Assembly: GCA_025352145.1 (NCBI GenBank)
Contig: JANXTY010000056.1
Span: 1 to 64,000 of the forward strand
Source: Oxalobacteraceae bacterium
GTDB taxonomy: Bacteria; Pseudomonadota; Gammaproteobacteria; Burkholderiales; Burkholderiaceae_D
Length of the DNA: 64,000 bases
Direction of reading: 5' to 3'
Shown in pieces: positions 45,089 to 63,968 of this stretch. Each line of letters starts with the position of its first letter. The stretch's first letter is position 1. The notes under the pieces were generated by a model. That model ran no database searches, was not told the DNA's origin, and was given only the letters and a program-made list of their open reading frames with translations. The position numbers were made by a program, and so were the translations under genes.

Positions 45089-46057
45089 TCACTTCAACCA
45101 GCCACGACGCCGGAAATACCAAAACGGGGTCACAGCCGATACCATCATTAATACCCAGGCATACGGATAACCCCAGGTCCACTCCAACTCAGGGAACCAC
45201 CCTTTAAAATTCATTCCATAAATACTGGCAATGAGCGTGGGGGGCAAGAACGCTACACTGGCCACTGAAAATATCTTGATGATTTTATTCTGGTTAATAT
45301 TAATAAAACCGACTGTTGCATCCATCAAGAAGTTGATTTTATCGAACAGAAAAGACGTATGCCCATCCAGCGATTCGATGTCACGCAAAATCTGGCGCGC
45401 TTCCTCGAATTGTTCTGCGCTTAACAAACGACCGCGCATTAAAAAACTCACGGCGCGACGTGTATCCATCATGTTGCGCCGAATACGTCCATTTAAATCC
45501 TCTTCCTGCGCAATCGCATTGAGTACAGCAGCCGCATCTTGGTCAGTAAATTCTTTTTGCAAAACACGCCGACTGACTTCTTCAAGCTGCTGATAAATCC
45601 CCTCTAGCGCATCGGCAGAATACTCGGCATCGGTCGCATACAAATCAAGCAACACGTCCATATGATCAGTAATCGAGCCTGGGCGGGAGCGCGCGCGCAT
45701 CCGCACCAACCGAAACACGGGAAGATCATCGGTATGGACCGAGAACAGCATGTTTTTTGCGAGGATAAAGGCTACGGTAACAATGCGTGACGGGCCGTCG
45801 TCTTCCTCCAGCAAAAAATCGGTACGCAAGTGAAGGTCGCCGCTTTCCGCCTCATAATAACGTGCGGATGCCTCGATATCCTTGACCTCATCTTCGCCTG
45901 GAAGCGTAACACCGTAAATCGCCTTTACCCAAGCGCGCTCGTCATCGTTCGGGTCGGTCAGATCGACCCATACCGGGCCGACTTTTTCAAGGTCGTTCCG
46001 ACTTTCAATGGGTACCTGATTAAGCCGTCCGTTTTGCAATACGAATACGTTGATCAT
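45089..46057 (-). CDS. corA: CorA magnesium/cobalt transporter
   Basis: Inner-membrane divalent cation channel of 322 residues. The cytosolic domain occupies about 1-255. Two C-terminal helices follow, the first ending in the YGMNF signature (GMN filter) and the second ending PFWYFRRRGWLK. Family marks include the acidic inter-helix loop (PELEWTWGYP). It converges with hemL. A 22-nt repeat end lies about 110 bp upstream of its start. Confidence 0.94.
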   Translation of the reverse strand: MINVFVLQNGRLNQVPIESRNDLEKVGPVWVDLTDPNDDERAWVKAIYGVTLPGEDEVKDIEASARYYEAESGDLHLRTDFLLEEDDGPSRIVTVAFILAKNMLFSVHTDDLPVFRLVRMRARSRPGSITDHMDVLLDLYATDAEYSADALEGIYQQLEEVSRRVLQKEFTDQDAAAVLNAIAQEEDLNGRIRRNMMDTRRAVSFLMRGRLLSAEQFEEARQILRDIESLDGHTSFLFDKINFLMDATVGFININQNKIIKIFSVASVAFLPPTLIASIYGMNFKGWFPELEWTWGYPYAWVLMMVSAVTPFWYFRRRGWLK

Positions 46058-46169: not shown

Positions 46170-46191
46170 GCTACGGTTGTGCAGAGGTCTC
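46170..46191 (-). repeat. solo end of a dispersed inverted-repeat element
   Basis: Read on the minus strand this is a 22-nt sequence starting GAGACCTCTGCACAACC, identical over all 22 positions to 60490-60511. No opposite end was found within the 240-bp gap between corA and the DUF4124 gene. It is likely a remnant of the same element family. Confidence 0.75.
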
Positions 46192-58223: not shown

Positions 58224-59132
58224 ATGAGTTGGACTGAAATCGTTATCGAAGTCGAACGTAACCATGCAGAAGCCTTGTCCGATGCGTTGATGGATGCGGG
58301 TGTACTGTCGGTATCGGTAGAAGACGCGGACGAAGGAACCAGTGAAGAACAACCACTGTTCGGAGAACCCGGCATGGAACCGGCACAAGCCGCATGGGAA
58401 CACAGTCGCGTGATAGCGCTGACCGAAGTCAATGCCGACCACCCCCAAATTGTGGCTCAATCCGCCCAAGCCAGTGGGTTGGGAAGCACACCAAACTATG
58501 TATTACGCCCAGTGGCAGAACAAGATTGGGTACGACTGACGCAATCGCAGTTTGTACCCATCCACATCGGAAAAAACATCTGGGTTGTGCCGAGCTGGCA
58601 TGAAGCGCCGAACCCGGACGCACTGATACTCGAACTTGACCCGGGCTTGGCATTTGGTACCGGCAGTCATCCAACGACACGGCTCTGCATGGAATGGTTG
58701 GAAGCACATGCGCCAACGGATTTGTCCGTACTCGACTATGGCTGCGGTTCCGGTATTTTGGCGATGGTGGCAAAAAAATGTGGTGCAGACGAAGTCACGG
58801 GCGTCGACATCGATCCGCAAGCAATTGAATCAGCCACTCACAATGCCGAGCGTAATCATTGTGATTGCGCCTATTATTTACCGGATGCATTCGCAATTGC
58901 ATTGAATGAAAAACGCTTCGATATTGTTGTTGCCAATATCTTGTCGAGCCCTTTGAAATTGATGGCGCCGATGTTATCGGGACGCGTCGCTCCCGGCGGT
59001 GCGCTGGTACTATCCGGTGTGCTGGCGCGCCAGGCTGAAGAAGTCGCCGCAGCATATGCGCCATTTATCCAATTGACGGTATGGGCCGAACACGATGGCT
59101 GGGTCGTCTTGTCCGGCAACCTCACTTCCTAA
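58224..59132 (+). CDS. prmA: ribosomal protein L11 methyltransferase
   Basis: SAM-dependent trimethylation of L11, 302 residues. The N-terminal recognition domain starts [20 protein letters not shown], followed by the methyltransferase domain with [34 protein letters not shown] (SAM loop) and the NPPY-like [10 protein letters not shown]. It is placed between accC and the DUF3426 gene, common in betaproteobacteria. Confidence 0.97.
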
Positions 59133-59137
59133 ACGCA

Positions 59138-60346
59138 ATGGCGCTCGCCACTCAATGTCCCCACTGCCACACGACCTTCCGTGTAGCGCACGACCAGCTC
59201 AAGCTGCGATCCGGCATGGTCCGCTGCGGTTCATGCCAACACATTTTTAATGGTATCGAACACTTAGCCGCAACACAGGGCTCCCCTGCGCCTATTGAGG
59301 CTAGCAAAAAGAGCCCTGATACCGATGACACCGATGTATCCACTGCTTCAACAAGCCTCCCTCATGCGCCAGCACCAATTGCACCCACGCACACTGGACT
59401 TTCACCAGAGTCTCGCATAGTACACTTAGCACCATCAGTGCCAGATGAGAGCGACTCCCTCGACTTCGCCCTCGATCCCCTCAGCTTTGACTCTGCCAGC
59501 CGCTCCAAAACACCAGCGTCGTCCTCGGAGGTGCATACCTTCAATGCGCAACCACCGAGCCTACCGGTCGCTGCAGAACCAGATCTGGCTGATCGGAATG
59601 AAGAACTGGAAGAGGCTGCATCCTTCCCGCCATCCTCTTTTCTAATAAATAAAGCCCTATTAAATACCGAAACGACTGAGGCAGAGGATGCGGTATTCGA
59701 GGAGGCCGAATTCAGCACGGACTTAGCTGTCAGCGAAGATCCGTTGTGGGACCAGGCGATATCCATGAGCGAAGCACGGATAGAAGAATATCCTCCCGTC
59801 TTCGGATTGAGTGACGAGCCTGACTTCGTCAAACACGGGCGCCGTAAGCAAAGCCACAAGCGCGCAATGCGCATTGCATTGTGGCTTAGCATTTTCTTTT
59901 TCTCAGTCAGCTTGTTCGTACAAAGTACGTACATCTTCCGCGACCTGATAGCTGCCTGGTATCCGCCATCGAAACCGTTCCTGATGCAAGAATGCGAATG
60001 GATTGGCTGCCAAATTGGGTTGCCCATGCAGATCGATACCTTGACCATAGAGCCAAATGACCGTGCGCTGCTTAGCCTGGACAAGAACAAAACAATTTAT
60101 GAATTTAACGTGCTACTGCACAACCACAGCACACTACCCCAAGCCTGGCCTTACATTGAACTAACCCTTAATGAGGCCAGCGGACAAGCTGTAATGCGAC
60201 GCATCTTCAAACCAAGCGATTTTCCACTCCCTGCGTCAGATATTGCAAAAGGCATTGCCCCCGAATCAGAACAATCCGTCCGATTTTTTTTCAGGCTTTC
60301 GCAAATTCAGGCGGCTGGCTATACCGTAAAAGTCTTTTACCCCTGA
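59138..60346 (+). CDS. zinc-ribbon and DUF3426 membrane protein
   Basis: A 402-residue protein from the ATG at 59138, 5 bp after prmA; an earlier frame into prmA is not needed. The N-terminal zinc ribbon has two CxxC pairs (CPHCHTTFRV and VRCGSCQHIF), as in MJ0042-type fingers. A long low-complexity acidic Ser/Pro/Ala-rich region (about 45-240) precedes one membrane helix (MRIALWLSIFFFSVSLFVQS). A C-terminal DUF3426 domain follows. Function is unknown. The zinc ribbon is predicted cytosolic, the DUF3426 part periplasmic. Confidence 0.85.
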   Translation: MALATQCPHCHTTFRVAHDQLKLRSGMVRCGSCQHIFNGIEHLAATQGSPAPIEASKKSPDTDDTDVSTASTSLPHAPAPIAPTHTGLSPESRIVHLAPSVPDESDSLDFALDPLSFDSASRSKTPASSSEVHTFNAQPPSLPVAAEPDLADRNEELEEAASFPPSSFLINKALLNTETTEAEDAVFEEAEFSTDLAVSEDPLWDQAISMSEARIEEYPPVFGLSDEPDFVKHGRRKQSHKRAMRIALWLSIFFFSVSLFVQSTYIFRDLIAAWYPPSKPFLMQECEWIGCQIGLPMQIDTLTIEPNDRALLSLDKNKTIYEFNVLLHNHSTLPQAWPYIELTLNEASGQAVMRRIFKPSDFPLPASDIAKGIAPESEQSVRFFFRLSQIQAAGYTVKVFYP

Positions 60347-60675
60347 GTCTAATTCCCATTGAAACCGTATTACGCAGCCGATATTCCCTGTTTGTCATCC
60401 CAACGTATTTTTAGAGGAAAGCGCGCTGGACGCAACACAATGAACAACACCAATAGAGTAGAGCGCCTTTCTATATCCATTCAATACCTGAGACCTCTGC
60501 ACAACCGTAGCGAGCGGCGAAATAGTGGATCGAGAAGCGCAACCGGTCGACTGGTGCTGCGGGCAATTCGGGCTAGCTGCAATCCGCCTGCGCAACGACA
60601 CATGCCTGCAGCGGCGCGCAGTAGGCTGTACAGAGGTCTCTCCCTTAGCTTTTCCCACATCATCACTCACACACC
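60347..60675. other. gap carrying a MITE-like element
   Basis: A 329-bp gap between the DUF3426 gene and the kinase gene. A 151-bp inverted-repeat element occupies 60490-60640. The remaining flanks hold no recognisable gene, and open frames here are short and lack ribosome sites. Confidence 0.5.
60490..60640. mobile_element. 151-bp MITE-like element with terminal inverted repeats
   Basis: The left end GAGACCTCTGCACAACC (from 60490) and right end GGCTGTACAGAGGTCTC (60624-60640) are inverted repeats. The outer 10 bases are identical and 15 of the first 17 match. There is no room for a transposase. The interior is G/C-rich with a near palindrome ACCGGTCGACTGGT. No clear target-site duplication flanks it. 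Matching ends occur at 46170-46191 and 61858-61880. It is probably a non-autonomous element mobilised by an insertion sequence elsewhere; the family is not assigned. Confidence 0.65.
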
Positions 60676-61608
60676 ATGACATCACTCATCTGCGGTTCAC
60701 TTGCCTTCGACACCATCATGCTATTCGATGGCCGATTTTCTGAAGCAATTCTGGCCGACCAGTTACACAAGGTTAACGTCGCCTTTTTAGTTCCCTCCCT
60801 GCGGCGCGAATTTGGCGGCTGTGCCGGCAATATCGCTTACAACCTGAAACTGCTCGGTGGCGATCCGCACATCATGGCGACCATCGGGCAAGACGGTGCG
60901 CCTTATCTGGAACGCCTCGACAAACTAGCAATATCACGCCGCAATATCCGCGTCATCGACACCTCCTACACCGCGCAAGCTTTCATCACCACCGATGCGG
61001 ACAACAATCAAATCACCGCCTTCCATCCCGGTGCGATGGGGCTATCGCATCAGAATAAAGTGGCAGATGCCGGCCCGGTCAAACTCGCCATCGTTGCGCC
61101 TGACGGCAGAGAAGGTATGCTGCAACATGCCAAAGACTGTGCGGTGCTGAACATACCTTTCATCTTCGATCCGGGCCAAGGTTTACCGATGTTCAATGGT
61201 GCCGAACTGATCGATTTCATCGAACTGGCCAGCTATGTGGCAGTCAATGACTATGAAGCGGAATTATTGATGCAACGCACCGGGCTAGGCCTCGAAAACA
61301 TTGCCCAGCGTGTCTCGGCCTTGATCGTGACACGGGGAGAATCGGGTGCTGAAATTTATGCCGACGGCAAACGCATCGACATTCCTTGCGTCCGCGTAGA
61401 ACAGGCGATCGATCCTACCGGTTGCGGGGATGCGTTTCGTGCGGGTCTGATGTACGGCATGCTCAACGACATGGATTGGCCCACCTCTGGACGACTCGCG
61501 AGCTTGATGGGCGCAATCAAAATCGCCTGCCAAGGAGGACAAAATCACCACCCGACCCACATTGAAATTGCGGACCGTTTTGCGAATGCATTTGGATACC
61601 GATATTAA
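60676..61608 (+). CDS. PfkB-family carbohydrate/adenosine kinase
   Basis: Ribokinase-fold kinase of 310 residues. The N-terminal substrate motif is GGCAGNIAYNLKLLGG. The C-terminal PfkB signature DPTGCGDAFRAGLMYG holds the catalytic Asp and anion hole. The overall form resembles adenosine kinase-like sequences (FHPGAMGLSHQNK), but the sugar or nucleoside is not fixed by sequence. The ATG at 60676 follows the MITE-like element by 35 bp, so the element may carry or disturb its promoter. It converges with thiS, 27 bp away. Confidence 0.85.
   Translation: MTSLICGSLAFDTIMLFDGRFSEAILADQLHKVNVAFLVPSLRREFGGCAGNIAYNLKLLGGDPHIMATIGQDGAPYLERLDKLAISRRNIRVIDTSYTAQAFITTDADNNQITAFHPGAMGLSHQNKVADAGPVKLAIVAPDGREGMLQHAKDCAVLNIPFIFDPGQGLPMFNGAELIDFIELASYVAVNDYEAELLMQRTGLGLENIAQRVSALIVTRGESGAEIYADGKRIDIPCVRVEQAIDPTGCGDAFRAGLMYGMLNDMDWPTSGRLASLMGAIKIACQGGQNHHPTHIEIADRFANAFGYRY

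Positions 61609-61857: not shown

Positions 61858-63968
<2,111 letters not shown>

Follow-up and report, generated by a model that had tools for sequence, protein, structure and literature searches.

A 151-bp inverted-repeat element of an Oxalobacteraceae bacterium and the putatively mobile hairpin family to which it belongs

What is the short element between a DUF3426 gene and a kinase gene at positions 60490-60640 of the window, i.e. the whole 64,000-nucleotide stretch analysed here, and does its importance lie in its ends or in what they enclose? A sequence-only reading had taken it for a member of a dispersed MITE-like family whose transposase is encoded elsewhere. We asked how far this holds for the window, for the host genome and for related bacteria. 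The features that matter in the window are the following.

45092-46057: corA (CorA, PF01544, E 1.7e-54)
46170-46191, minus strand: lone 22-nt left end, about 110 nt upstream of corA (blastn, 100% over 22 nt)
59081-60346, plus strand: zinc-ribbon/DUF3426 gene, adjoining the element (PF11906, E 7.1e-31)
60485-60489, no strand: left copy of the putative decayed 5-bp target duplication, TACCT (sequence; the family shows a 5-bp duplication)
60490-60640, plus strand: the element, end type A, canonical strand of the family (inverted pair and models R1 and R2)
60490-60506, plus strand: left terminal inverted repeat, GAGACCTCTGCACAACC
60507-60544, plus strand: conserved core, left half, GTAGCGAGCGG..GAGAAGCGCAACC (blastn and model alignments)
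60545-60614, plus strand: variant interior, exceeding the standard 121-bp form in length (blastn)
60615-60624, plus strand: conserved core motif, right, CGCGCAGTAG (model alignments)
60624-60640, minus strand: right terminal inverted repeat with two mismatches, reading GAGACCTCTGTACAGCC on the reverse strand
60641-60645, no strand: right copy of the putative decayed 5-bp target duplication, TCCCT (sequence)
60676-61608, plus strand: PfkB-family kinase gene, adjoining the element (PF00294, E 3.4e-35)
61858-61880, plus strand: lone right-end remnant of 23 nt at the 3' end of thiC (end search and sequence)

The window copy and its lone ends

The element is complete, as had been proposed: its 17-bp inverted ends lie 117 nt apart and are complementary at 15/17 positions (88%), and Pfam confirmed both neighbouring genes, which are on the plus strand, the kinase ATG following the element after 35 nt. 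The covariance model R1, built from 18 copies of the family, scored 62.2 bits (E 3.1e-13) on the window copy, compared with 120-128 bits for the three top copies in the host genome, and also 28.5 bits on the minus strand; the core model R2, built from 64 copies, matched positions 60502-60628 with 21.1 bits (E 0.0024). By blastn, bases 1-61 of the element are 95% identical to the copy at C22:64496-64556, and the variant interior is partly common to two further copies (83% to C31:55584-55703 and 89% to C43:669-756). The flanks TACCT and TCCCT are identical at four of five positions, as a decayed 5-bp target duplication would be. Folded as DNA, the window copy did not stand out from its shuffles, 23 of 200 of which folded at least as well (z -1.17).

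Four sites in the window match the 17-bp end with at most three mismatches, where 0.12 are expected, and none of 100 shuffles reached four. The two lone ends already noticed from the sequence are real. The one upstream of corA, in opposite orientation to the element, is exact over 22 nt, and the one at the end of thiC (ThiC, PF01964, E 5e-184) deviates at two of 17 positions (61858-61874). The latter is additionally a right end and supplies the stop codon of the gene: thiC ends ..YRKQ stop on the minus strand, the TAG being part of the element's CAGTAG, and in the reading direction of thiC the remnant reads ..CGCAAGCAGTAGGTTGTGC...

Copies, end types and putative transposases

In the 3.48-Mb draft genome of the host, the 17-bp end occurs at 41 sites with at most two mismatches (one site for a reversed control pattern), blastn of the element gave 36 matches at E 1 or less, and R1 gave 39 at E 0.1 or less, including several places hit on both strands. 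The expectation of a genome-wide family was thus borne out, the family having many copies with ends in inverted pairs mostly near 121 bp. The exact GAGACCTNTGCACAACC was present in seven of 392 genomes of the same family, the host genome among them; the other six (Undibacterium amnicola, U. flavidum, U. seohonense and three MAGs) all belong to genus g33 of our genome set, which is called Undibacterium here, the host being of another genus. NCBI taxonomy places Undibacterium in the Oxalobacteraceae; its GTDB family we take to be Burkholderiaceae. R1 copies were detected in 36 of 43 Undibacterium genomes, with 1 to 80 matches each, and the complete copies first examined were mostly 121 bp long. 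Two internally deleted copies of 72 and 54 bp (L082 and L006) have kept both ends, the 72-bp one with an exact 5-bp duplication. A 292-bp stretch in Formosimonas limnophila (L136:5190-5481) has perfect GAGACCTCTGCACAACC ends around an unrelated interior, without a duplication.

We extracted 131 copies and typed the ends of the 129 that were longer than 70 bp, leaving out L201, which lies near a contig edge. Allowing up to four mismatches per end, 51 copies were assigned to type A (GAGACCTCTGCACAA), 26 to type B (GGAAGCTCTGATTAAG) and the other 52 to type C, a crude rule that put L200 into type C despite the ends of L198 and a CTAA match, and that left some rows resembling type C in type B. Type A copies carry an exact 5-bp duplication in 21 cases and agree at four or more of five positions in 35, with seven copies matching exactly over 4 bp only, not 5 bp; among 2550 mismatched flank pairs, 0.20% showed a 5-bp match. 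Type B is characterized by 4-bp duplications that resemble YTAR (five TTAA, two CTAA, one TTAG and one TAAT), with an exact match in nine of the 26 copies against 8.2% of 650 mismatched pairs. Type C has no target duplication of constant length (exact 5 bp in one copy, 4 bp in another), and many copies outside types A and B show private yet complementary end stems and no duplication.

The family therefore shares with MITEs the terminal inverted repeats, the lack of a transposase of its own and the many dispersed copies, together with a constant-length duplication in type A (5 bp, four of five in the window copy) and in type B (4 bp). Since target duplications accompany both the GAGACCTCTGCACAACC and the GGAAGCTCTGATTAAG ends, copies of both kinds appear to have been inserted by a target-duplicating transposase, and the spread of types A and B by transposition is well supported by the sequence comparisons. 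For the GAGACC-type copies as a group, ordinary intergenic DNA conserved in the absence of mobility is excluded. In genome G371, type A and type B ends enclose cores that share a 12-nt insertion with one variable base (L314-L317 and L319-L322), from which it follows that ends were exchanged on one core, or cores between ends.

Which enzyme might have moved these copies? IS5 elements generate 4-bp duplications of the YTAR type, as seen in type B. The resemblance to insertion-sequence ends that had been remarked upon was found again in an IS5-type transposon of another bacterium, Solidesulfovibrio, with GAGACCNNTGCACA ends like those of type A: an annotated IS5-family transposase gene is bounded there by GAGACCAATGCACA and GAGACCACTGCACA and by a 5-bp ATATC duplication, whereas our element contains no transposase gene. 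GAGACC ends were absent from the seven other IS5-type plasmid elements among the eight compared. A Chloroflexi MAG (L183) contains GAGACCTTTGC ends, without a target duplication, around an ORF 40% identical to the Solidesulfovibrio transposase, and a second, broken copy in the same MAG encodes DUF772 and DDE_Tnp_1 domains.

The host genome yielded 14 PF01609 matches, several of them at contig edges and with single weak end sites (12-13 of 17) present, at none of which was an intact gene enclosed by paired GAGACC ends, although draft assemblies may lack copies; an autonomous transposon in the host genome was rejected on these grounds. Eleven PF01609 matches in five of the six Undibacterium genomes had no such end pair around an intact gene either, and the sixth genome, U. 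amnicola (G155), had no PF01609 match. With the IS5 transposase with similar ends as query, matches in the host and the six Undibacterium genomes were weak or absent. As no comparable transposase was found in these seven genomes, we infer from enzymes of other phyla that IS5-family transposases may act in trans on the ends of the element. A 99-bp copy of the element in G288 has a decayed DDE_Tnp_1/PF01609 match (L096:1501-1992) at a distance of about 60 nt, which contains five stops and scores below the cut-off. A truncated ORF next to an end in L125 had no Pfam match.

Ends of this kind also turned up farther afield. Three Chloroflexi and Deltaproteobacteria MAGs (L145-L174) contain 18, 22 and 16 GAGACCTYTGCA-type ends with at most one mismatch, many of which form inverted pairs about 60-130 bp apart around quite different interiors, so that several unrelated short elements appear to share ends of this type. 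Some lone end matches in Deltaproteobacteria, Verrucomicrobia and others are probably due to chance. Two end matches in viral contigs were likewise taken as chance, there being no second end nearby, and a longer end pattern was not found in the viral contigs. A 34-base match in plasmids was unrelated, and a blastn search of plasmids and phages with one core sequence, which diverged copies could escape, gave no match.

The conserved core hairpin and its relatives

Standard copies form one long imperfect hairpin with conserved unpaired motifs, in which stems are kept by compensatory change. The structure, drawn by us from the sequences themselves, comprises 46 base pairs and was evaluated on alignment A2 of 91 copies, obtained from 128 readings of 115-123 bp (some of them double) by removal of near-duplicates, which left 101, and omission of ten decayed rows; a further alignment, A3, used 64 of 84 rows. 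In A2, 93.3% of the cells were paired (77.1% in shuffled alignments), 38 of the 46 pairs had changed on both sides and were still paired (26.6 shuffled), 737 cells had changed on both sides (225.5 shuffled) and the covariation score was 0.504 (0.202 shuffled), and although the row selection for A2 and A3 favours pairing and related sequences inflate the covariation numbers, the margin is large, none of 500 shuffles having reached any of the observed values. Slid along the same alignment, the structure paired 32-39% of the cells. There is little variation in the unpaired motifs GTAGCGAG, GCAGTA, GAGAAGCG and GAGCATCG.

These results bear on one rival explanation, a plain MITE in which only the ends matter and the hairpin is a by-product of a palindromic IS5-type derivative. 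Real duplications and transposon-like ends speak for it. Against it stand the compensatory changes, seen also in the end stems where copies lack recognisable transposon ends, the conserved unpaired motifs and the occurrence of one core with several end types. The earlier MITE-like reading is supported by the many copies, the inverted ends, the 5-bp duplications and an IS5-type transposon with similar ends, but it is incomplete: the ends are not what defines the family, since a single core is found with differing ends and target duplications, and what they enclose is a conserved hairpin with strong covariation, often situated in operons at stop codons. The core moreover extends well beyond the host genome. 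Within the host's family, 240 of the 392 genomes searched, and 31 of the 44 genera, had R2 matches, with E values down to 6e-28; as about ten candidates were scored in each genome, the copy numbers are lower bounds.

Across the class, R2 matched 18 of 369 genomes, one of them the host; matches in the remaining 17 were weak (best E 1e-8 to 2e-4). By eye, several of these weak matches, in other gammaproteobacterial families (L386-L399), resemble longer hairpins that share GTAGCGAGC and CGCAGTAGG. Some have additional inverted repeats on their flanks, for example CTCAGAGGTTGTGA, and together they have the look of a wider, related superfamily.

Could the family then consist of RNA genes, with a structured RNA or sRNA transcribed from the canonical strand or an sX9-like sRNA from the other, that acquired mobility only in some lineages? 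In favour of this, several genomes have one copy only, and the Xanthomonas sRNA sX9 (Rfam RF02228), the closest relative known, matched weakly in L388 (39.2 bits, E 0.001), L386 (30.2 bits), L387 (27.5 bits) and L224 (26.0 bits), the alignments in L224 and L386 sharing GCUCGCUAC. However, all these matches lie on the reverse strand, opposite to the canonical one, and below the gathering score of 44, and not one of the 34 loci scanned exceeded an Rfam gathering score. Moreover, sX9 is a 76-nt model with short local hairpins that covers one half of the diverged relatives, whereas the element forms a long-range hairpin. A passage in PMC9029176 lists sX9 among the 20 most prevalent sRNA annotations in bacteria, and one in PMC6337395 names it for two Herbaspirillum genomes. 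The sRNA explanation is further weakened by the position of the copies relative to genes, given below, and we regard it as quite improbable.

Position at stop codons, strand asymmetry and a possible role in operons

To describe the genomic context, the neighbouring genes of 126 copies of at least 100 bp (77 non-A and 49 type A) were classed by a codon-usage score, which replaced a noisy context based on the longest frame; because this score is unreliable in other genera, the polarity reported here is claimed for Undibacterium and the host genome only. A gene ends towards the right end in 47 of the 77 non-A copies, and in 42 of these 47 it does so within 10 nt, so that they directly adjoin the gene rather than forming the separate units expected of an sRNA. 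At the left end the corresponding figure is 4 of 29. Once copies with similar flanks had been merged into independent sites, the counts were 24 of 29 for the right end and 4 of 18 for the left. Type A copies lie within 10 nt of a gene end in 8 of 23 cases on the right and 2 of 23 on the left. A true stop codon was present at the computed place in 38 of the 42 right-end junctions, with TAA in 23 and TAG in 10 of the 42.

Ten neighbour fragments were confirmed by Pfam. The hairpin is located at the stop codon of the first gene in groES/groEL, exbB/exbD (MotA/TolQ/ExbB and ExbD/TolR domains), gshA/gshB and parE/parC, the last pair named by us from domains of the gyrase B C-terminus and topoisomerase IV subunit A. 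The neighbours at the thiolase/SDR, ABC permease/ATPase and pirin/DoxX sites were named by eye. Copies between pyk and fba are an exception: they have the other orientation, the canonical strand being the sense strand, and instead of adjoining a stop codon they immediately precede the start of fba, with about 170 nt to the end of pyk. Among 15 Undibacterium genomes chosen for comparison, the groES/groEL site was filled in four and empty in the other 11 (22-52 nt between the anchors of empty sites), and it is empty in the host genome as well (49 nt).

On the plain-MITE explanation, copies at stop codons would reflect gene-sparing insertion into YTAR/TAA targets, and YTAR does contain the TAA and TAG that prevail at the junctions. 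The fixed polarity of the sites and the conservation of one site across several genomes (the groES/groEL cluster comprises seven loci from different genomes) speak against this, and together with the evidence from the hairpin they make a plain MITE an unlikely explanation.

The two strands of the hairpin are not equivalent. Taking as canonical the strand of the window copy that is read on the plus strand, G.T pairs exceeded A.C mismatches in non-A copies by 51:13 in the end stem and by 61:8, 69:2 and 16:3 in the three inner stems; in type A, the ratios in the same four stems were 26:17, 45:9, 26:8 and, against the trend, 5:9. For 51 of 55 non-A copies, and for 34 of 36 of type A, the canonical strand had the more stable predicted RNA fold. 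By orientation to genes, G.T to A.C in non-A copies was 115:11 for antisense, 47:14 for sense and 35:3 for other copies. When each combination of column and pair type was counted once, the excess fell to 28:17 in non-A and 30:29 in type A copies, so that much of it may reflect shared ancestry, and we consider the evidence for strand selection suggestive. Both the stability of the canonical strand and the G.T excess agree with an sRNA transcribed from it.

Strand-specific stability and polarity at stop codons also recall attC sites, which have a strand-specific fold and a polarity, and hence a single-stranded DNA hairpin worked by a recombinase, as in integron attC sites or REP elements. Exchange at attC sites leaves no target duplications, whereas types A and B carry them, and type C shows no conservation of its end sequences; such a mechanism is very improbable here.

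The explanation that we favour, and hold to be somewhat probable from the comparison of sequences, is that the element is a copy of a non-autonomous mobile family of intercistronic hairpins of about 120 bp, spread by IS5-type transposition and with a presumed role at the mRNA level. IS5-family transposases would move copies with type A and B ends in trans. Copies with private stems, which sit with one fixed end at a stop codon, some of them at the same site in several species, would be retained because the hairpin, in an mRNA between two cistrons, might alter processing or decay of the transcript; unequal expression of the two cistrons could follow, as has been proposed for ERIC/IRU and NEMIS. 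Retention with compensatory change, siting at stop codons in operons and the predominance of one polarity are the reasons for which we argue for such a use at the RNA level.

Known repeats offer parallels in description. ERIC forms a hairpin, and its target duplication is TA. According to passages in PMC2229807, ERIC is an MITE-like intergenic repeat of about 120 bp that is co-transcribed with its neighbours and apparently involved in mRNA stability, and RNase III is proposed to cleave the RNA stem-loop of NEMIS in adjacent mRNAs. Like ERIC/IRU/RU-1, the 127-bp enterobacterial repeat, the non-A copies place a hairpin between co-oriented genes, and the window copy, too, lies between two plus-strand genes. 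Our element differs from ERIC in its hosts, in its 5-bp or YTAR-like duplications instead of TA, in the several end types on one core and in the fixed polarity at stop codons. NEMIS/Correia repeats of Neisseria are similarly non-autonomous with an RNA stem-loop, and have other hosts. A description of the hairpin element was not found in the literature searched, mostly outside subscription papers, and a search with the sequence string gave solely unrelated papers among the matches listed.

For the window copy itself, the type A ends, the rearranged interior and the slightly decayed ends suggest that it is probably inert, or at most has a local influence on the kinase gene downstream. For the family, the main point that an mRNA-level explanation leaves unexplained is the strand result. 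For most operon copies it is the less stably folding strand that is present in the mRNA, and selection on operon mRNA alone does not predict the stability of the canonical strand or a G.T excess that is found in antisense copies, too. A broader view, which we would as readily doubt as accept, is that of a structured mobile element throughout the bacterial family, with a covarying core that has diverged relatives in other Gammaproteobacteria (sX9 representing one half of these) and that swaps ends together with transposase and duplication, recurrently recruited, mostly in one orientation, to stop codons of core operons such as groES-groEL, and under selection on the fold of the strand opposite to most of the mRNAs.

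If this is true, an apparently undescribed hairpin would reside inside core operons in many genomes of a large bacterial family, and the relative expression of groES and groEL or of exbB and exbD may depend on it. It would also exemplify a mobile element that conserves an RNA-like fold while its ends can be exchanged, and sX9 sRNA annotations would have to be re-interpreted.
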